A stretch of 37,685 nucleotides of DNA from an uncultured Bacilli bacterium (GTDB lineage Bacteria; Bacillota_I; Bacilli_A; RFN20; CAG-826). Shown here piece after piece: positions 9,053 to 22,077 of the stretch. Under the pieces are notes generated by a model. The model saw only the letters and a program-made list of their open reading frames with translations, made no database searches and was not told the DNA's origin. The position numbers and the translations under genes were made by a program. The number at the start of each line of letters is the position of its first letter. The first letter of the stretch is position 1. The stretch is taken from NCBI GenBank assembly GCA_944372115.1, contig CALVYH010000010.1, positions 1 through 37,685 of the forward strand, read 5' to 3'.

Positions 9053-9949
9053 ATGTTGCCAAATATTTTGATGATTGCCGGAGTTTTTGCAGTTTCTTTG
9101 AACGTTTGTTCCAACAAAATGAATTCACAAAATCAACTTTTTCAACCAGATGTAGTACTGACGACAGTAAGAACACCGAATGGAACGGAAATCGAAGCTT
9201 TTAGGGTTAATAATGATATGGAAGAATATAGGAAAAGAGAATTAGAAAACGATGACTTAAATAAGTATCCAGGTATAGCACTTTTGGCTCCTGCCACCCA
9301 AAAATATAATTGCCATTCATATGCGCGGCACGACCAATCTCCAACAAATATTTATCGGATACACGATCCTAGAGAATATTGGGAAGATGGAAGTTATATA
9401 GAAAGTAACGGATCTCCTGGAGATAAAGTTGTTTATTACGAAGGTTCTAGTTTTATACATTCAGGCATAATCAGTGAAAGAATTGGATCTTATGAAGGTT
9501 CTAATAATAATCCTAATATTGGAGATCTTGACAACGTTATAATTCATTCTAAATGGGCAAATTCTGGTGTTTTTGAGCATAAAGGGTCCGTAGGACCTTA
9601 TAATAATGTTACGAAAATCAAATATTATAAAGTTCCGGAACATAATCATGATTTCACTTATGAATGGATTGATTACAAAAAACATGAAGTTTATTGTAGT
9701 TGTATGGTAAAACCGATGATTCAAGGTCATTTTGTAGCTGGTGGTAGTTTCGACTCTGGAGAAAGGTATGCAAGTTGCCTTAGATGTGGTGGTCTTGCTG
9801 AAATGGGTTTGATTATAAATCCAATGGCTAAAAATTCCGAATTTAATTATATTAATGGCCGTTATTATGTAAAAGAAACTAAATTTATTGATGGAATCTT
9901 GAACTTATCATATGAGGATTACCAATATTTTTTGAGTTCCAATCTTTAG
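9053..9949 (+). CDS. Secreted NCHSYA-domain protein, candidate papain-like hydrolase with Cys/His-rich C-terminal domain
   Basis: This 298-residue exported protein has a hydrophobic N-terminus (residues 1-18) without basic residues. The central domain (about 75-195) has KYNCHSYA (C87), then GDKVVYY, IHSGIISE (H136) and HSKWANSGVFEH. That order (Cys at a helix start, a GD-x-V strand, then His-x-Gly-hydrophobic) recalls the NlpC/P60-CHAP papain-like fold, so a peptidoglycan or peptide hydrolase is inferred. The C-terminal domain (197-298) has H197/H199, W205, H211, C215-x-C217, H226 and C242-x2-C245-GG. It matches the C-terminus of the subtilisin at 13.7 kb. A strong CAGGAGG site fixes the start. 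Codon use is visibly less A+T-biased than in neighbouring housekeeping genes, suggesting transfer. Confidence 0.6.
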   Translation: MLPNILMIAGVFAVSLNVCSNKMNSQNQLFQPDVVLTTVRTPNGTEIEAFRVNNDMEEYRKRELENDDLNKYPGIALLAPATQKYNCHSYARHDQSPTNIYRIHDPREYWEDGSYIESNGSPGDKVVYYEGSSFIHSGIISERIGSYEGSNNNPNIGDLDNVIIHSKWANSGVFEHKGSVGPYNNVTKIKYYKVPEHNHDFTYEWIDYKKHEVYCSCMVKPMIQGHFVAGGSFDSGERYASCLRCGGLAEMGLIINPMAKNSEFNYINGRYYVKETKFIDGILNLSYEDYQYFLSSNL

Positions 9950-9973
9950 TTTTGTTATAGGAGGAAAAACCAC

Positions 9974-10447
9974 ATGAAAAAATATCTTAAATTTTTATCT
10001 ATTTTTAGTTTAATCATTCTTTCGAGCTGTCAAAATAATGTTGATAATAATGTTAAACACGCTTCATTTTTTCCTACTTATCTAGGATATTTTTCTGGTT
10101 ATTTATTCGGATTTGGAATGAATGTAATAAAACAAGAAGAAATCATCAATAAACTTAATTTTATTGATGATTTAGATTTTAAAAAAGTTGAAAGAGAAGA
10201 TATTGGTGAATACTATGATGCAGTTTGGTTTATTTATCCTTCACTTCAAAGCATGTATGAATTAGGATTAACTATTGATAACTCAATATTTTATGTTGAA
10301 GAAAATAGAGAAGAAACAAAATATTATTTAGCTAAATTAAATGATTTTAAATCAGAAGAGATTATCTCATATTTAGAAAAAAACGGAGCATATCTTGACG
10401 TAAGTATGCTCTTATTAGGATACCCGATTCCAAATATTTTATTTTAG
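9974..10447 (+). CDS. Lipoprotein of unknown function (paralogue of the next gene)
   Basis: This 157-residue lipoprotein has a basic N-terminus, a hydrophobic segment and a lipobox (MKKYLKFLSIFSLIILSSC). The mature part contains EEIINKLNFIDDLDFKK and YLAKLNDFKSEEIISYLEKNG, which line up with EDLLTNLNFISPLDFKI and YLNKYTSSTIKNYIYSNGK in the next gene, so the two are diverged paralogues. ATAGGAGG lies 12 bases after the NCHSYA gene stop, making an operon likely. I do not recognise the family. A surface role or immunity to the adjacent secreted enzyme is speculative. Confidence 0.65.
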   Translation: MKKYLKFLSIFSLIILSSCQNNVDNNVKHASFFPTYLGYFSGYLFGFGMNVIKQEEIINKLNFIDDLDFKKVEREDIGEYYDAVWFIYPSLQSMYELGLTIDNSIFYVEENREETKYYLAKLNDFKSEEIISYLEKNGAYLDVSMLLLGYPIPNILF

Positions 10448-10461
10448 AAAGGAACGAAGAT

Positions 10462-10950
10462 TTGTTTATGAAGAAATTTTTTATTTATTTATCATTAATA
10501 TTATTTTCATTGACTAGCTGTTCAACAATAAAAAATAATAACGAAGAGTTAATTCCTAATTATTTAGCTGTATATGCTAATCACAATGATGGCCCTGATG
10601 ATTTTTATTGTATTGAAAAAGAAGATTTATTAACCAATTTAAATTTCATATCTCCATTAGATTTTAAAATTTGTGATGGCGAATCTCGTTTTGAAAAGGA
10701 AAGAGTTGCATATTTATATTTCATTTATCAATTGGATGAAAATCTTTATACATACTCTAGTTATATTCTTTCTAGCGATAATAAAATATTTACTAACTTT
10801 GAAGTTGATAATAACTATGCTTACTCATATTTAAATAAATATACTTCATCGACAATTAAAAATTATATTTATTCAAATGGAAAATTTAGAACTTTTAATA
10901 TAGCTACATTATCTTTTTATAATTTGCCTTATGATTTTAAATTTGAATGA
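10462..10950 (+). CDS. Lipoprotein of unknown function (paralogue of the preceding gene)
   Basis: This 162-residue lipoprotein has the signal KKFFIYLSLILFSLTSC. It shares the LNFI-x2-LDFK motif and the spacing of later motifs with the preceding gene, with low overall identity. The start is either TTG at 10462 (seven bases after AAAGGAA) or ATG at 10468 (13 bases after it). Spacing favours the TTG, while lipoprotein convention favours the ATG. It ends in TGA, which supports the standard genetic code. It is the third gene of the accessory cluster. Confidence 0.62.
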   Translation: MFMKKFFIYLSLILFSLTSCSTIKNNNEELIPNYLAVYANHNDGPDDFYCIEKEDLLTNLNFISPLDFKICDGESRFEKERVAYLYFIYQLDENLYTYSSYILSSDNKIFTNFEVDNNYAYSYLNKYTSSTIKNYIYSNGKFRTFNIATLSFYNLPYDFKFE

Positions 10951-11027
10951 TCTTTTAATAAAGGTAACCTCAATTTTCATTAATTTTTCACTTGCTTTAG
11001 TGGAATTTAAATATTACTATAAAAATC

Positions 11028-11362
11028 ATGAAAGAAAAGAGTTACATAATAATTATTATTGTTAATATATTGTTTACTTTTTTGTTTTTTATATTTGCAA
11101 TAATTAATTTTTTGACTTATTTATTTGTTTTACTTTCTCTGCAAATAACAATTAATGTTATTTATTTCTGTGTAAAGAATAAAAAAACATAAAATTATTG
11201 GCATTTTTAATTCCGTTTGTTTATGTTCATAATCAAACACCTTTTGTATCATCTCTTTTATTTAGTTTTGGTCCAGTTGGATTTGATATTGATTTTGGCC
11301 TTTCTTTTAATTCCACATATTATGCAACACCAATAACATTACCAAGCGCAATAATTATCTAA
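11028..11362 (+). pseudogene. Frameshifted small membrane-protein gene (about 112 residues if repaired)
   Basis: An ATG at 11028 opens a 54-codon frame, beginning KEKSYIIIIIVNILFTFLFF, that ends at a TAA (11190-11192). The -1 frame then continues from 11192 to a TAA at 11360-11362 with KLLAFLIPFVYVHNQTPF and a glycine/serine-rich end. Adding one A to the A7 run at 11181-11187 joins them into one protein with three hydrophobic segments. No family is recognised, and the ATG lacks a good ribosome-binding site. The rest of the 10951-11495 gap holds only A+T-rich sequence and a weak hairpin. Confidence 0.55.
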
Positions 11363-11413
11363 TTTTAAATTTAATTTCTAAATTATATTTTATTAATATA
11401 ACCTTACTTTAGA

Positions 11414-11478
11414 GAAGATAATTAAAATTTGTATTTTGTTAAAATCACCCATTTTTATATAATTTTTATCTTCTTTTT
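11414..11478 (+). terminator. Weak terminator candidate after the accessory block
   Basis: GAAGATAA (11414-11421) pairs with TTATCTTC (11466-11473), which is followed by TTTTTG. The 44-base loop makes this a weak call. Confidence 0.25.
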
Positions 11479-11495
11479 GTTAAACTAATTACCAT

Positions 11496-12710
11496 ATGAA
11501 AGAAATTTTTATTATTGGTGGAAGCTCCTCATCTTTATTTCTGACTTCTTTAATAACTTATTATAAATTAGATTATAAAGTAACAATTATTGAAAAAAAT
11601 AAAGTTTTAGGAAGAAAACTTTTAGCAACGGGAAATGGAAGATGCAATTTATTAAATAAAAAAATAAATGAATTTTCTTTTAATAATGAAGAAACTAAAA
11701 GTTTAATAACAAAGGAAGATATTGATTTTGAACTAGATTTTTTCATTAATAAATTAGGAATAGAGTTAACTAATATTAATGAGCTTGTTTATCCTTATTC
11801 ATTTAGTGCTAAATCATTTACAAACTTTTTATTAAATTATATTTCTTCTAATAAAAATATAAGGTTTTTAACTGAAACAATATTTTTAGATTATAGAAAA
11901 AATAATAATAATCAATATGAAATAATTACCTCAAAAGGTAATTATTTCTCTGATTATATTATTTTTGCTAGTGGAGGAAAAAGTTATCCATCTTTAGGAA
12001 GTGATGGAAGTATTTTTAATATATTAAAAAAACATAATTATAAAATAACTCCTATTTTTCCAGGTTTATCACCTATAAAACTAAAAGAATCAACTAAAGA
12101 AATTGAAAATGAAAGAATTAAATGTGAAGTAAGTTTATTTAATAATAAAGATGAACTTATTTATAAAGAAAATGGGGAAATAATCTTTAAAAAAGATGGA
12201 GTTAGTGGAATATGTATAATGAATATTTCTTCTTTAATACTTAGAAATAAACTAATTAATCCATATATTAAAATTAATTTTTTAAATAATATATCGTTAA
12301 ATGAATTTATTAATATTTTTAATATTTATTTAAAAAATAATAAAAATAATAATAATTTCTTATTATCTTTTTATAGTGAAAGATTAGCAATATATCTATA
12401 TAAAAATATTAATAAATCATTTAATAATAATATTAATATAAATAATATAGATAAAATTTATAATTTGTTAACAAATTATAAATTTAATTATTTATCTAAT
12501 TATGATTTTTTATCTTCTCAAGTAAGTGTTGGAGGAATTAGTTATTCTAATTTATCTATTAATGATTTATCTTCTAAAATAGATAAAAATATCTATTTTG
12601 TAGGAGAAATATTAGATAGTGATGGAATGTGTGGAGGATATAACTTAATGATCTCTTTTTTTACTTCCTTAAAAGTAGTTAAAGCATTATCTAACTATAA
12701 TAAAAAATAA
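11496..12710 (+). CDS. BaiN/HI0933-family flavoprotein (NAD(P)/FAD-dependent oxidoreductase) with altered GxGxxG motif
   Basis: This 404-residue protein carries family signatures: GRKLLATGNGRCNLLNKK (about 38-55), IIFASGGKSYPSLGSDGSIF, the middle FKKDGVSGICIMNIS block and the C-terminal FVGEILDSDGMCGGYNLMISFFTS, which normally closes the FAD site. The N-terminal dinucleotide-binding loop is IIGGSSSSLFL where GGGxxG is expected, so two of the three GxGxxG glycines are Ser (S10, S13). The acidic residue at the end of the second strand (IIEKNK) is kept. It may bind FAD weakly or have drifted. No ribosome-binding site is visible. The neighbours do not suggest a substrate. Confidence 0.82.
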   Translation: MKEIFIIGGSSSSLFLTSLITYYKLDYKVTIIEKNKVLGRKLLATGNGRCNLLNKKINEFSFNNEETKSLITKEDIDFELDFFINKLGIELTNINELVYPYSFSAKSFTNFLLNYISSNKNIRFLTETIFLDYRKNNNNQYEIITSKGNYFSDYIIFASGGKSYPSLGSDGSIFNILKKHNYKITPIFPGLSPIKLKESTKEIENERIKCEVSLFNNKDELIYKENGEIIFKKDGVSGICIMNISSLILRNKLINPYIKINFLNNISLNEFINIFNIYLKNNKNNNNFLLSFYSERLAIYLYKNINKSFNNNININNIDKIYNLLTNYKFNYLSNYDFLSSQVSVGGISYSNLSINDLSSKIDKNIYFVGEILDSDGMCGGYNLMISFFTSLKVVKALSNYNKK

Positions 12711-12722
12711 GGATATTTTTAA

Positions 12723-13676
12723 TTAATTCTTTTTATCTATATTTTTTAAATATTTAAAATCTGTTTGAATTAATAAAGAAGGAATAACTAAAAATGAGAT
12801 AATCATTATTAAACTATGAAGCAAAAAACTTATTAAGGAAATCTCATTAATATTTTCAAAAGTTAATAAAATCTCTTTTTGTGCACCAATATTTAAATCA
12901 ATAAGAAGAGTGCCAATCATTAAAGAAATAAAAATAGGAATAATTCTAAATTTAAAGATTCGATATTTAATTCCAATAATTAAAAAAGTTATAATTGAAA
13001 GCAAAAACATAATTGAAAAGAAAATAAATAAAATAAGGTTTAAGGTTGAAAAATCATAGTAAAAAGCTTTAAATTCAGGAAAATAAGCAAATCGTTTGCT
13101 GAAAAGATAAGGTATATGTAAAGTCATTGTTAAAATCATAAAAGACATTGAAAGATAAAAAAGAACTATGTAAAGAATAATTTGTTTTGTATTATTTGTT
13201 TTTAATTTATTGTTTATTAAAATTAAATTTAATTTTCTATATTCATCACTTGTTAAATCAATATTAACTTCTTTTTTATATATAAAATTAGAAGTTAATA
13301 AAAATGTAGAAATGTTATAAATAATAAAAACAAAATAGCAAGCTACATTTATTGAGTTATTCGTAAGCTGATGATATAAAGAATTGGTAATTATATTTAA
13401 AAGAAGAAAAAATATTGGATTAATGATAATAAATATTTTTAATAGTTTATTAAAATTATAGTTTTTAGAAAACTTAATTAATATTGAAATGAAATAGCAA
13501 TAAAAAATTAAAAAATAGACTATAAGTAAATATGAAAAAATATTTCCATAAATATTAAAATAATTATCATTTATAAAAAATCCATATGTCACATTCAAAA
13601 TTGAAAAAATAAGTAGTGAAATATAACTTAAAATATTAAATTTAAATAAACTATTTTCTTTAATTAATTGTCTCAT
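12723..13676 (-). CDS. Polytopic membrane protein of unknown function
   Basis: This 317-residue protein has about eight hydrophobic segments (near 12-32, 42-68, 80-97, 110-130, 165-190, 208-238, 243-262, 280-303) and a basic C-terminus. No family is recognised. Its ATG overlaps the TGA stop of the upstream subtilisin gene (ATGA), so it has no ribosome-binding site of its own and should be translated by coupling. A second, 24-codon copy of its beginning lies upstream of the subtilisin, next to a good ribosome-binding site. The gene therefore seems to have had its own promoter until the protease gene was placed in front of it. It converges on the flavoprotein gene with 12 bases between stops. 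Confidence 0.6.
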   Translation of the reverse strand: MRQLIKENSLFKFNILSYISLLIFSILNVTYGFFINDNYFNIYGNIFSYLLIVYFLIFYCYFISILIKFSKNYNFNKLLKIFIIINPIFFLLLNIITNSLYHQLTNNSINVACYFVFIIYNISTFLLTSNFIYKKEVNIDLTSDEYRKLNLILINNKLKTNNTKQIILYIVLFYLSMSFMILTMTLHIPYLFSKRFAYFPEFKAFYYDFSTLNLILFIFFSIMFLLSIITFLIIGIKYRIFKFRIIPIFISLMIGTLLIDLNIGAQKEILLTFENINEISLISFLLHSLIMIISFLVIPSLLIQTDFKYLKNIDKKN

Positions 13677-13679
13677 AAA
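13594..13679. repeat. Direct repeat copy A (5' end of the membrane-protein gene)
   Basis: These 86 bases recur at 15301-15385 with two substitutions and one single-base gap. The copy includes the start codon and first 27 codons of the intact membrane-protein gene. The last sense codon and the stop codon of the subtilisin (13673-13678) lie inside this repeat. Confidence 0.85.
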
Positions 13680-15229
13680 TTGCCATTTCCTATATCGCTA
13701 GCATTTATTTCACCATCTAAAATTTTTTGAGCAATTTCTTCATCAACGAGAATAACATTATTATCCAATGTATAATATTGATCTAAGTTTTCAATATCGT
13801 TTGCAAAAAGATTTGCTTGAGCATCACCGCCGCACAATATACATTTATAATATTGTGAACCAACTGGTTTTTCGGAAGTAATAATGTGAGACATTTGGTT
13901 TGTCTTTTCGCATCTGCAATTAGCTTGATGCTTTGTTAAATTTACCCATTTGTAATTTAAATTATAATTATGAACAGTATGAACGCTTCTTATAGCTTTA
14001 TTTACATTTAATACTCCCCCGGTCAAGCAATATTTTGACAACGAACTAACTTTTGTTACGTTATTTAAAATAGCGTTTTTTAATTCACTTGTTGATAAAT
14101 CTGGTCTTTCAGAGAGCAATAAAGCTGCCGTTCCTGAAACATGTGGAGCGGACTGCGAAGTGCCTGTATATGGAGTTTCGTAGTCATTGTTTGGATATGT
14201 GTTATAAATGTCAACGCCGGGAGCAAACAAATCTACATTATTTTTGCCATAGCAACTGTCCTCGTATTTGTTATTATTTTTATCAGAATTACCTACACAA
14301 ATTATGTTTTCCAAGTTAAAAGAGCTGGCGGTATAATCAATCAAATCCACATTCAAATTTTCGTTACCTGCAGCGCAAACAAAAAGACCATCATAATTTT
14401 CAATGGCTTGTTTTGTCGACATATCTATACCTTCAGAGCCGATTGAATAATTAACAATAGGAAGCTTCAATTCTGTAGCCTTGTTAATGGCATCTACAAT
14501 ATCATGGTACATAAATCCACTCAGTACTTTTGGAATTTTTAATGATACTAAACTTACATCCCAACAAATGCCTGCAAATCCAATGCCATTATTTCCTTTT
14601 GCACCAATAATTCCTGCGACATTTGTGCCATGGCCACTAGGATCTATGCCTGGATCACCGGTTATGAGTCCAATCCCATCGCTTAGTTCGGAAGAATAAT
14701 TTTCAGATAAATCAAAATTATTTTTGTCTATTCCTGAATCAATTATACCTACAGCTACATTTTTGCTTCCGGTTTGAATTTTCCGAGCTTCATATGCATG
14801 TACTTTTTCAAGACTCCGTTGTTTGTTGATGTAAGTATCGTTTGGAATAATTTTAGAACCTTGTGTAGTCAAAATTGCGTTATCTTTATAAAAATCAAAA
14901 TAAAAAATGTCTTTGTTGTTTTTTAAAGTTTTAAAAAAAGTTTTTAGATTACTATTTCTTGATTCTAAATTAAAAATTTTACGTTTAGTAGCTTCTTTTT
15001 TTAAGTCTTCTATGTTAATACCTGTTGATAAATCATCAAAAATTATATTTTGCGGTTTTTCGAATGGAAATGACCCATTTTCTTCATATTTTATACTGCT
15101 TTCATTTGTTAATATTAAATAACCGTTAGCTTTTTCGTTTAAAAAGGAAATACTATTAGCATAACTCGAAATGTTAGTATTAGCTAAGCAGAAAATAAAT
15201 GACCCTATTAAGTTAAATGAAAGTTTCAT
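13673..15229 (-). CDS. Secreted subtilisin-family serine protease (S8) with Cys/His-rich C-terminal domain
   Basis: This 518-residue exported protease has a signal peptide (about 1-24), a propeptide-like region (25-140) and an S8 catalytic domain (about 141-415). D164 lies in VAVGIIDSGID, H200 in GHGTNVAGIIGA, oxyanion N289 in CAAGNE and Ser358 in GTSQSAPHVSG, so the triad is complete. The C-terminal domain (about 418-518) has H420, W428, H434, C438-x-C440, H448 and C463-x2-C466-GG, matching the C-terminus of the NCHSYA protein. No ribosome-binding site precedes the ATG. The stop overlaps the next gene's start. Codon use is less A+T-biased than around it, and the gene sits between direct repeats, so recent acquisition is likely. 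It could be a surface protease or process a partner peptide. Confidence 0.9.
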   Translation of the reverse strand: MKLSFNLIGSFIFCLANTNISSYANSISFLNEKANGYLILTNESSIKYEENGSFPFEKPQNIIFDDLSTGINIEDLKKEATKRKIFNLESRNSNLKTFFKTLKNNKDIFYFDFYKDNAILTTQGSKIIPNDTYINKQRSLEKVHAYEARKIQTGSKNVAVGIIDSGIDKNNFDLSENYSSELSDGIGLITGDPGIDPSGHGTNVAGIIGAKGNNGIGFAGICWDVSLVSLKIPKVLSGFMYHDIVDAINKATELKLPIVNYSIGSEGIDMSTKQAIENYDGLFVCAAGNENLNVDLIDYTASSFNLENIICVGNSDKNNNKYEDSCYGKNNVDLFAPGVDIYNTYPNNDYETPYTGTSQSAPHVSGTAALLLSERPDLSTSELKNAILNNVTKVSSLSKYCLTGGVLNVNKAIRSVHTVHNYNLNYKWVNLTKHQANCRCEKTNQMSHIITSEKPVGSQYYKCILCGGDAQANLFANDIENLDQYYTLDNNVILVDEEIAQKILDGEINASDIGNGNL

Positions 15230-15300
15230 ATTTAATATTAATATAACAAACGCAATTATAAAAGTAAATCCAATCGGTTAAGCAATCCTATTTATACCTA

Positions 15301-15385
15301 TTTAAAATTAAAAAATAAGTAGTGAAATATAACTTAAAATATTAAATTTAAATAAACTATCTTCTTTAATTAATTGTCTCATAAA
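15301..15385. repeat. Direct repeat copy B (displaced 5' end of the membrane-protein gene)
   Basis: This is the second copy of the 86-base repeat. Together with copy A it brackets 13680-15300, which holds only the subtilisin gene and its leader. One missing base relative to copy A turns the reading frame into a stop. Confidence 0.85.
15308..15382 (-). pseudogene. 24-codon remnant of the membrane-protein gene start
   Basis: The ATG at 15382 opens MRQLIKEDSLFKFN and continues for 24 codons. It differs from the intact gene product by one residue (Asp for Asn) until a stop created by a single-base loss. An AGGAG site lies 12 bases upstream, whereas the intact copy has none. This suggests the remnant keeps the original upstream signals of the gene. 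The remaining 15230-15300 and 15386-15585 are A+T-rich and show no other gene. Confidence 0.7.
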
Positions 15386-15585
15386 ATATTTTGTCTCCTA
15401 AAATATATATAATTTTTTAATATTAATAAAATTATTATTATCTAAATAAAGTAATTAAATATTTAAATTCTATTTAAAATATAACATAGTTTTTAAAAAT
15501 GAGTATTTTTATATTACGTTATTTTAATTTTTTAGTTAAATTAATTATAATTATTTTGTTAAATAAAATTTATATAGAAATATAT

Positions 15586-18643: not shown

Positions 18644-18895
18644 ATGATTGAATTTCGCTATGACACACAACTTTTAATTGAAGGAAAAAATTTAAACGAA
18701 GAAAAAATTGAAGAATATTTTACTAAAAATTTTAAAGGCGATTGTCTTTTAGCGGTTGGTGACGAAGAATTAATAAAAATCCATTTTCATACTAATGAAC
18801 CTTGGAAAGTATTAGAATATTGTGCTTCTTTAGGTGAAATTTATGATATCGTCGTTGAAGATATGGATAGACAAGCTAGAGGATTAAAAGGTTAA
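18644..18895 (+). CDS. Stand-alone FakA/YloV C-terminal-like domain (Dak-related)
   Basis: This 83-residue protein resembles the end of the fatty-acid kinase FakA (YloV). It has FRYDTQLLIEG, then a DCLLAVGDEELIKIHFHTNEPWKVLEYCASLGEIYDIVVEDMDRQ block, matching FakA's ...LLVV-x-D-x-E-x-V-K-V-H-x-H-T...P..VL.y...G.l..i.ieNM..Q pattern. No kinase domain is attached. Small proteins of this kind are often annotated as kinase to dihydroxyacetone kinase, and their role is not established. An AAAGGAAA site precedes the ATG. Its last 22 codons are repeated 1.9 kb downstream, bracketing an inserted block. Confidence 0.78.
   Translation: MIEFRYDTQLLIEGKNLNEEKIEEYFTKNFKGDCLLAVGDEELIKIHFHTNEPWKVLEYCASLGEIYDIVVEDMDRQARGLKG
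18829..18895. repeat. Direct repeat, left copy (3' end of the FakA-like gene)
   Basis: These 67 bases recur at 20772-20838 with seven substitutions. Five of the seven are at third codon positions, and the encoded end changes only conservatively (Gly/Ala, Val/Ile, Glu/Asp). The stop codon is TAA here and TAG in the other copy. Confidence 0.8.
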
Positions 18896-18967
18896 TCCGA
18901 CTTTTTAACTAATTAAATAAAATTAGGTAATTTAAGTTAATTAAAAATTATTTATTAGGTTGTAAAT

Positions 18968-19806
18968 ATGTTTTTTGTTAATAAATCATTATTATTGTTA
19001 GGTCTTTTATTTTCTATAAGAGGATTTTTTTTGTAAATGATAACATTAATATTAAAATTACTTACTTAGGAGACATCAGAAAGGAAACATCGTGTAAAAG
19101 TATATTTAATGTAGGCAAAGTTAATAGAAGTCTGCTTTCTTTTAAGGAGGAGAAAAAAATATCTAAGATTGAGCAAGAGACGATTGTTTATATTCCTGAA
19201 AGGAAAATTGAAATAACTGGTCATTATAAAAATGCGGGAGTATCAGATACTTTTATTGAACACGAAGGATATATTAAATTTTTAACTGTTGTTTCTTTGG
19301 TCGGACATAATTCTACAGGCAATCCTAAGTTTCGAGTTTATTCTGAAGCGAATATTTTAAAGAATTTTTTCTTTAAACAAAAAGATTTTTTAGTTATAGA
19401 TTCTGATGAAAATTCTGTATATGATTCTAATAATGATGGTTTGAATGGAAAACATGAAGTATATAAAAAATATATAAATACTAATCCTCCGACATATAAA
19501 GGCTTTAAAACTACTTTAAAACCAATCTATAGTGATGTAGGCGGTGGTGTTTTATATGCCGATAATTTAGGCAATACTGTAAACGACATATTAGGAACAA
19601 CAATATACGATGAACGATTTACGGGAAGTTATTATTTTATTGCAACAAACGATACTTCAGTTCAAACAAGTTATGTTCATGATGAAAATATTTTTGGTGA
19701 TCTAAATATTTCTTTTTCAATATACGGATTAGGTTTTAGTGTTGATGGTAGCAATTCAGTATTTCATGCTGAGCCAGTAACTATAAATTATGGAGATTTT
19801 ATTTAG
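18968..19806 (+). pseudogene. Frameshifted secreted-protein gene (about 279 residues if repaired)
   Basis: The ATG at 18968 encodes a signal peptide (FFVNKSLLLLGLLFSIRGF) that runs into a TAA (19034-19036) just after a T8 run at 19025-19032. The -1 frame is open from 18985 to the TAG at 19804-19806. Adding one T joins them to give ...FFFVNDNINIKITYLGDIRKE and onward. The mature part is rich in Asn, Asp, Tyr and Thr, looks beta-rich, and ends in FHAEPVTINYGDFI. I do not recognise a family. A TTG at 19297 could give a shorter 169-residue product, but would omit the export signal. The stop overlaps the start of the following membrane protein. Confidence 0.65.
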
Positions 19807-20768
19807 TGAAAATTTTATTTAAAAAAATTGGTTGCTTCATTTTGTTTTTGTTCATAATATTGCTTTCATTTGTTCCTTTTATTTCTATTAAAGGTTGGGG
19901 AGAGGAAGAGCTAACTTTATCTTTAATAAAGACTATTTCCTTTAGTTTAAATAGCAATATACTTTTTTTTATTTTTCATATTTTTATATTTGTTTCTGTT
20001 ATTTCTTATTTTCTATTTTCTTTCCTAAAATTTAACATTAAGAAAATTTTTTTGGAAATTTCATTGATTTGCTTTTCTCTTGGTTTTCTAATTTTGCTTG
20101 TTGATTTTTTATTTTTAAAAGCAGGTCTTTTATTAGGTATTCCAAGAGAATCAATTAATTCTAGTAAAAACATATCTTTTAATCCCCTTATATTTTTTCT
20201 TTACATCGCTTTATTTATTATCTATTTTTCTCTATTATCAGATTCTTTTAAAATAAATCTAACAAAAACATCGTTTTTTTATAAACCTAATTTCTTATTT
20301 TATGTTTTTTTGTTTTTAAGCGTAGTATTTTCTTTTTCTTTTAAATTATTTGGGTTAAATGTTTTAATCAATTTTTTCCCTCTTTTATTCCCTTTTGTTA
20401 ATTTACTTTTAAGAAAAGAAGAATTGTATTTAATAACTTCTTTTTCTATGTATTCTTTAATTTGCAGTATTAATTTTAATGCTCCGCAAGAATTTTTATA
20501 TTTACTTTTGTACACATTTTATTTTTTATATATTTTTTTTAAAAAAGAACCACTACAAAAATTTTCTTCTTATTTTTTAAATAGTTCAATAGCTTGTTTT
20601 GTTCCAGTTTTTTTAAACATAATTTTAACAATATTTATTTATAATAACTTCAATATTAATTTTTATCTACTTGATTTTATAATCTACTTGTTTTTATTTA
20701 TTCTTTTTTATTGTTTAGAGTTGCCTTTTATTTATCTAATTTTGAAAAGAAAGTCTAAATTTGAATAA
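19806..20768 (+). CDS. Polytopic membrane protein of unknown function in the inserted block
   Basis: This 320-residue, extremely Phe/Leu/Ile-rich protein has about nine hydrophobic segments and short loops. It begins with GTG in a TAGTG overlap with the preceding secreted-protein gene, so the two were designed to be translated together. Its stop at 20766-20768 lies three bases before the displaced 3' fragment of the FakA-like gene. Sequence similarity to the 317-residue membrane protein next to the subtilisin is not evident by eye, but the size, topology and pairing with an exported protein are alike. No family is recognised. Confidence 0.6.
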   Translation: MKILFKKIGCFILFLFIILLSFVPFISIKGWGEEELTLSLIKTISFSLNSNILFFIFHIFIFVSVISYFLFSFLKFNIKKIFLEISLICFSLGFLILLVDFLFLKAGLLLGIPRESINSSKNISFNPLIFFLYIALFIIYFSLLSDSFKINLTKTSFFYKPNFLFYVFLFLSVVFSFSFKLFGLNVLINFFPLLFPFVNLLLRKEELYLITSFSMYSLICSINFNAPQEFLYLLLYTFYFLYIFFKKEPLQKFSSYFLNSSIACFVPVFLNIILTIFIYNNFNINFYLLDFIIYLFLFILFYCLELPFIYLILKRKSKFE

Positions 20769-20771
20769 GAA

Positions 20772-20838
20772 TTTAGCTGAAATTTATGATATTGTTATTG
20801 ATGATATGGATAGACAAGCTAGGGGATTAAAAGGTTAG
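20772..20838 (+). repeat. Direct repeat, right copy: displaced 3' end of the FakA-like gene
   Basis: In-frame remnant encoding LAEIYDIVIDDMDRQARGLKG and a TAG stop. There is no start codon or upstream gene body, so it is not expressed as a protein. It lies 19 bases before the Ogt-Tag gene. The FakA-like gene was therefore probably the direct neighbour of Ogt-Tag before the block 18896-20771 arrived. Confidence 0.8.
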
Positions 20839-22003: not shown

Positions 22004-22077
22004 TGGAGCAGGTGACGGGAATCGAACCCGCGTAATCAGCTTGGAAGGCTGATGCTCTACCATTAAACTACACCTGC
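22004..22077 (-). tRNA. tRNA-Gly (anticodon UCC)
   Basis: A 74-nt cloverleaf including an encoded CCA end. The acceptor stem GCAGGTG pairs with CACCTGC, the D-arm contains TAGTTTAATGGTAGA, the anticodon stem is CAGC/GCTG around the loop CTTCCAA (anticodon TCC at 22043-22045), and the T-arm is CGGG-TTCGATT-CCCG. It stands alone, with its own promoter and terminator. Confidence 0.97.

Follow-up and report, generated by a model that had tools for sequence, protein, structure and literature searches.

A gene for a secreted subtilase stands, in the 37,685-nucleotide window analysed here (the whole stretch of DNA, from an uncultured, very AT-rich member of the Bacilli), between two near-identical copies of the 5' end of the membrane-protein gene that follows it, and we lean towards the view that the protease arrived by duplicative insertion at this 5' end. 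Insertion is the most likely of several readings; it is of a kind already known, and a new mobile element is not indicated. We infer that the event was an insertion and neither a deletion nor a duplication, that it took a single-crossover route from a donor as described below, and that the two genes are coupled.

Read along the minus strand, the locus consists of an AT-rich upstream region, an AGGAG motif, a 24-codon stub, a 70-nt leader, the protease gene and, joined to it by an ATGA overlap, the gene of the membrane protein (Table 1). The two repeat copies are 96.6% identical (two substitutions and one gap, E = 9e-34; longest exact match 50 bp), and their score of 156 was not approached in any of 200 dinucleotide shuffles, the maximum there being 48. 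A search of the bacterium's own genome with the repeat sequence returned these two copies as the only strong matches. A sequence-only reading had described them as 86-base segments with the same differences, which is right to within one base, and its account of an outer copy that keeps an AGGAG site and is cut to 24 codons agreed with our check of the minus strand. This copy encodes MRQLIKEDSLFKFNILSYISLLIF*; compared with the intact start it carries one amino-acid difference (N8D) and one further substitution near its end, and the loss of a C leads to the stop after codon 24. An AGGAG in the range seen here, 12 nt before the ATG, precedes 11 of the 1305 ATGs of the window (0.8%). The takeover of the target gene's expression proposed in the same reading is conjectural: the old upstream region and its AGGAG now serve the stub, and the protease has no visible Shine-Dalgarno site of its own. 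The inner copy is intact and opens the complete protein. The first reading had it lose its own ribosome-binding site; a weaker purine stretch (AGGA) is found 11 nt before the inner start, inside the 3' end of the protease gene. The protease ends in ...GNGNL*, and its last sense codon (TTA) and stop (TGA) do come from the repeat, where the stop overlaps the start of the membrane-protein gene (ATGA). Such an overlap suggests that protease and membrane protein may be translationally coupled.

Table 1. Positions of the features of the protease locus in the window.
Feature	Position	Strand	Evidence
Species-specific block as a whole, separating the HI0933-like gene from the ThiF gene; missing in G013 and G021	12711..15520	.	
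Gene of the polytopic membrane protein (317 aa with about 8 hydrophobic segments); first 84 nt inside the inner repeat copy	12723..13676	-	ORF, hydrophobic segments
Inner repeat copy, 87 nt; begins 3 nt before the membrane-gene ATG	13593..13679	-	
Secreted subtilase (peptidase S8), 518 aa, signal peptide, C-terminal Cys/His-rich domain	13673..15229	-	Pfam PF00082 3e-44
Unique segment between the repeats: 70-nt leader and protease gene	13680..15299	-	
Outer repeat copy, 86 nt: cut-off 24-codon membrane-gene start, AGGAG 12 nt upstream	15300..15385	-	

With its signal peptide and a catalytic domain carrying the D/H/S motifs (D164, H200, S358), the protease resembles known members of peptidase S8 such as deseasin MCP-01, its closest solved relative, but it adds the Cys/His-rich C-terminal domain that is common to other secreted proteins of the genus. 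Within the family, its nearest relatives share about 39-43% identity with it. No Shine-Dalgarno site is visible before its ATG, whereas GGAGG precedes its paralogue on contig C5 of the same genome (G000:C5) and the relative of that paralogue in G009. An extended -10-like site ends 11 nt upstream of the protease ATG; promoter-like sites in this region are no commoner than in shuffles. The membrane protein had no match in Pfam, NCBIfam, PADLOC or PHROG, and searches of 224 family genomes, the GTDB contigs and IMG/VR gave no full-length homologue of significance. An AlphaFold model made without an alignment consisted of helices throughout (pLDDT 57) and was too weak for a structure search, and a comparison of the two membrane proteins of the window gave no homology. 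Viral, phage and plasmid collections held no close relative of either the protease or the membrane gene.

Base composition shifts abruptly where the outer copy ends: G+C is 8.6% in the region upstream of it, 22.5% in the leader, 31% in the protease gene and 17% in the membrane-protein gene. The unusual codon bias of the protease had been read as a sign of the insertion, and the difference from its neighbour is real (GC 31.3% and GC3 22.2% versus 16.7% and 11.9%). Sequences homologous to the protease or to its C-terminal domain (in G000, G002, G009, G013, G021 and G023), however, also have GC contents of 28-32% and GC3 of 15-21% wherever they are located. Because the protease family shares this composition within the genus, it is weak evidence of recent arrival; judged from these sequences, the bias is a family trait throughout the genus and does not date the event.

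An indication of age comes from two congeneric species, G013 and G021, which are syntenic with the window over the stretches compared, mostly at 84-94% DNA identity (about 90%). In both, the HI0933-like and ThiF genes adjoin, and protease and membrane gene are absent together: window positions 12677-15536 correspond to 53 bp in G013 and positions 12706-15521 to 35 bp in G021, as against about 2.8 kb in the window. Since the two flanking genes lie close together without the block in both of these closely related species, the block is recent. In a third, more distant species (L129), even the HI0933-like gene is missing at this place. A relative or strain with an uninterrupted membrane gene was found in none of the collections searched, the 224 family genomes and the GTDB contigs among them, and for this reason insertion into a pre-existing membrane gene is a conclusion drawn from anatomy. 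The proposal of a precise insertion that rebuilt its target thus holds for the structure, in which duplicated target flanks the cargo and no second full-length paralogue accompanies it; the single-copy ancestor was not among the genomes searched. A possible target duplication around the whole block (12713-12772 and 15420-15481, score 41) was rejected as AT-rich chance similarity, one of 200 shuffles having reached this score in what was one of nine tests. Nearby, at 10958-11442, a 484-bp stretch that has no convincing gene and no Rfam match lies between the second lipoprotein gene and the HI0933-like gene; G021 lacks it.

According to the insertion model, the native order would have been promoter, AGGAG and membrane gene. 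A donor fragment consisting of leader, protease and ~84 nt from the start of this membrane gene (or of one of its alleles) would have recombined with the resident copy via the short homology, most simply by a single crossover of a circularised or sister-joined (mis-joined) fragment. The product would be a truncated copy upstream, under the old promoter, and a complete copy downstream that overlaps the protease stop. The repeat would begin at the start codon because there the donor, with protease upstream, and the recipient, with promoter upstream, stop being alike. Three facts favour this direction of events, namely the AGGAG before the outer copy, the sharp change in composition and the lack of convincing remnants on either side. 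Uptake of DNA by this bacterium is possible, since the genome contains a DprA gene as well as a 677-aa ORF whose match to ComEC is weak and falls short of the curated cut-off. Against the model counts that near-identical flanking repeats are not a habit of the protease family, 40 other loci or regions examined showing none and the module on contig C5 having been inserted without one. The model also shifts to the donor the question of how the protease came to stand before this membrane gene. A donor with the order protease - membrane gene is plausible, as the secreted enzyme of this family is usually the first gene of a pair.

The same habit provides the strongest rival explanation, a tandem duplication in a protease operon followed by a deletion, which we nevertheless regard as unlikely. 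Here, protease and membrane gene would already have formed a coupled operon, a 1.7-kb unit (leader, protease and first 84 nt of the membrane gene) would have been duplicated, and the first protease would then have been deleted. In most homologues within the genus the stop overlaps the start of the gene that follows, so that coupling of the protease to a second gene would be the default order of the family, and the repeat would be explained without a foreign donor. Two events are required, however, nothing convincing of a first protease and no trace of its 70-nt leader is present upstream of the outer copy, and the end point of the deletion would have to coincide with the AGGAG 12 nt in front of the outer ATG. 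Still less credit is due to simple decay, in which the protease once lay between two paralogues of the membrane gene and a single deletion removed codons 25-317 of the outer one. The outer copy is indeed a 5' fragment, cleanly cut and preceded by a ribosome-binding site of its own, but neither the genome itself nor the 224 family genomes contain a second full-length paralogue, the insert between the repeats holds no convincing remnant of codons 29-317, and the region upstream of the outer copy gives only weak, AT-rich and scattered matches to the membrane gene; moreover, 96.6% identity would require a recent duplication together with a clean deletion. A small site-specific mobile cassette with the membrane-gene 5' end as its attachment site would suit a compact, gene-sized unit (1.7 kb) whose boundary lies precisely at a start codon, and yet is most improbable, as neither the insert nor its immediate surroundings contain an integrase or transposase, the repeat does not recur in the genome, and other homologue loci are without such repeats. 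Equally improbable is a strain chimera joined at the repeat during assembly: the draft genome is divided into 24 contigs, of which the window is one, but the copies differ at three positions, they match exactly over 50 bp at most, and where the outer copy ends the junction has no sequence in common with the continuation of the inner one, so that a collision of k-mers does not make this junction.

Duplicative insertion, the reading that we prefer, has precedents. Insertion with long target duplication was described for restriction-modification genes in Helicobacter pylori (Nobusato et al., 2000, as reported in PMC1643837 and PMC3031569). As far as these reports describe it, the likeness lies in a gene-sized insert that has no visible recombinase and is bordered on both sides by a long direct duplication of its target, recognised by comparing close relatives; at the protease locus, the direct repeat flanking the insert (86/87 bp, 96.6%) falls within the tens to hundreds of bp of this pattern. 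Measured against the same reports, the cargo here is a secreted protease instead of a restriction-modification system, the duplication spans the 5' end of a gene that stays intact and overlaps the cargo gene, and an empty target is seen for another, 66-bp repeat pair of the window (see below) but not for the protease pair. We consequently file the locus with the structural pattern only and not with the restriction-modification examples. Foreign DNA beside a duplicated homologous stretch of the target also results from single-crossover integration of circularised fragments of partial homology in Escherichia coli, although the duplications there measured 109-950 bp and were made in the laboratory (PMC3240628), whereas the present one is natural and has 86-87 bp. 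Homology-facilitated illegitimate recombination in transformable bacteria likewise anchors gene-sized foreign DNA by one short homologous end, but as a rule a similar length of chromosomal DNA is lost in the process (PMC3240628), while DNA was duplicated at the protease locus. Transposons and insertion sequences fit poorly, as the insert has no transposase and the duplication far exceeds 2-14 bp, and the block contains no integrase gene that would place it among integrase-driven islands.

The second direct repeat (18829-18894 and 20772-20837; 66 bp, 91%) surrounds a species-specific insertion at 18895-20771 that encodes a secreted ORF and a membrane protein. Its first copy is the 3' end of a FakA-like middle-domain gene; in G013 the repeat is single-copy and the insert absent, and in G021 the membrane gene is present while the secreted gene and the second repeat copy are absent. 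The secreted ORF (18970-19806) shows an apparent frameshift in a T run near 19026-19033, after a signal-peptide-like start, and its last codons and stop lie inside the 5' region of the membrane gene (TAGTG overlap). The two pairs, of 86/87 nt and 66 bp, are the window's only direct repeats of this kind, and a survey of 266 kb of G013 and G021 revealed no such pair, the two pairs above the threshold having gaps of only 87 and 120 bp. Repeat-flanked insertion is thus real in the window but not frequent. Long-target-duplicating insertions with single cargo genes are rarely seen so fresh, and here two occur within 37 kb.

In the genus and its family, secreted enzymes that end in the Cys/His-rich domain are usually encoded by the first of two genes, its stop overlapping or abutting the start of a lipoprotein-like gene (G000:C5, G009, G013 twice, G002, G023, G006 and G181); in the window, the orphan membrane protein takes the second place. 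Two-gene modules made of a secreted protein (a subtilase or another enzyme-like domain) with the shared C-terminus, followed by a variable lipoprotein-like gene, recur across genus and family (window 9053-10950; L013, L008, L005, L004, L106, L014, L009, L107; L083 10320-11757), and by analogy they are reminiscent of effector and immunity pairs. It seems doubtful, though it merits a mention, that a recombinase-free capture route in the genus drops secreted-enzyme genes before the start codons of resident membrane-protein genes, swapping the usual lipoprotein partner and rebuilding the target. If so, the stop/start-coupled pair at 19297-19806 and 19806-20768 would be another product, G021 having its membrane gene without the secreted gene. 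In any case, the reduced genome of this uncultured bacterium, in which DprA and possibly ComEC are present, would lend itself to studying the capture of gene-sized DNA without a mobile element, and its two repeat-flanked insertions to studying how a newly acquired gene comes to be coupled to one already resident.

We also rejected the idea of a general mobile cassette recognisable by its flanking repeats, as none of 40 other protease-family loci or regions had near-identical flanking repeats. Three of these loci had diverged repeats only (66-77%, one 37-nt piece 89%), and these look like repeats that lie inside the ORFs of the locus or are shared among them. The paralogous subtilase and lipoprotein module of 2.2 kb on contig C5 (L077 6761-8984) is 90% identical to L079 4396-6608 (G009:C3). 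The flanks of the two are unrelated, the site in our genome is empty in G013 and G021, and no flanking repeat of this kind marks the insertion. The comparison speaks for horizontal movement of the module, in which no recombinase was seen. The motif GGTAATGTCAATAT (up to 2 mismatches) occurs at the edges of two modules (L083 10149-10164 and 11852-11867; L077 6756-6771) and adjoins an IstB (IS21) remnant in G021; its copies are possibly relics of IS21-type ends that once moved modules. A 68-bp repeat in G021, considered as a third case of repeat-flanked insertion, turned out to be a tRNA-Gly 3' end with its terminator, an ordinary island attachment site accompanied by IstB (IS21) relics. The island at this 3' end occupies L083 9907-12702, and the same site is empty in G013 and in the window, where the tRNA-Gly gene lies at 22004-22077.
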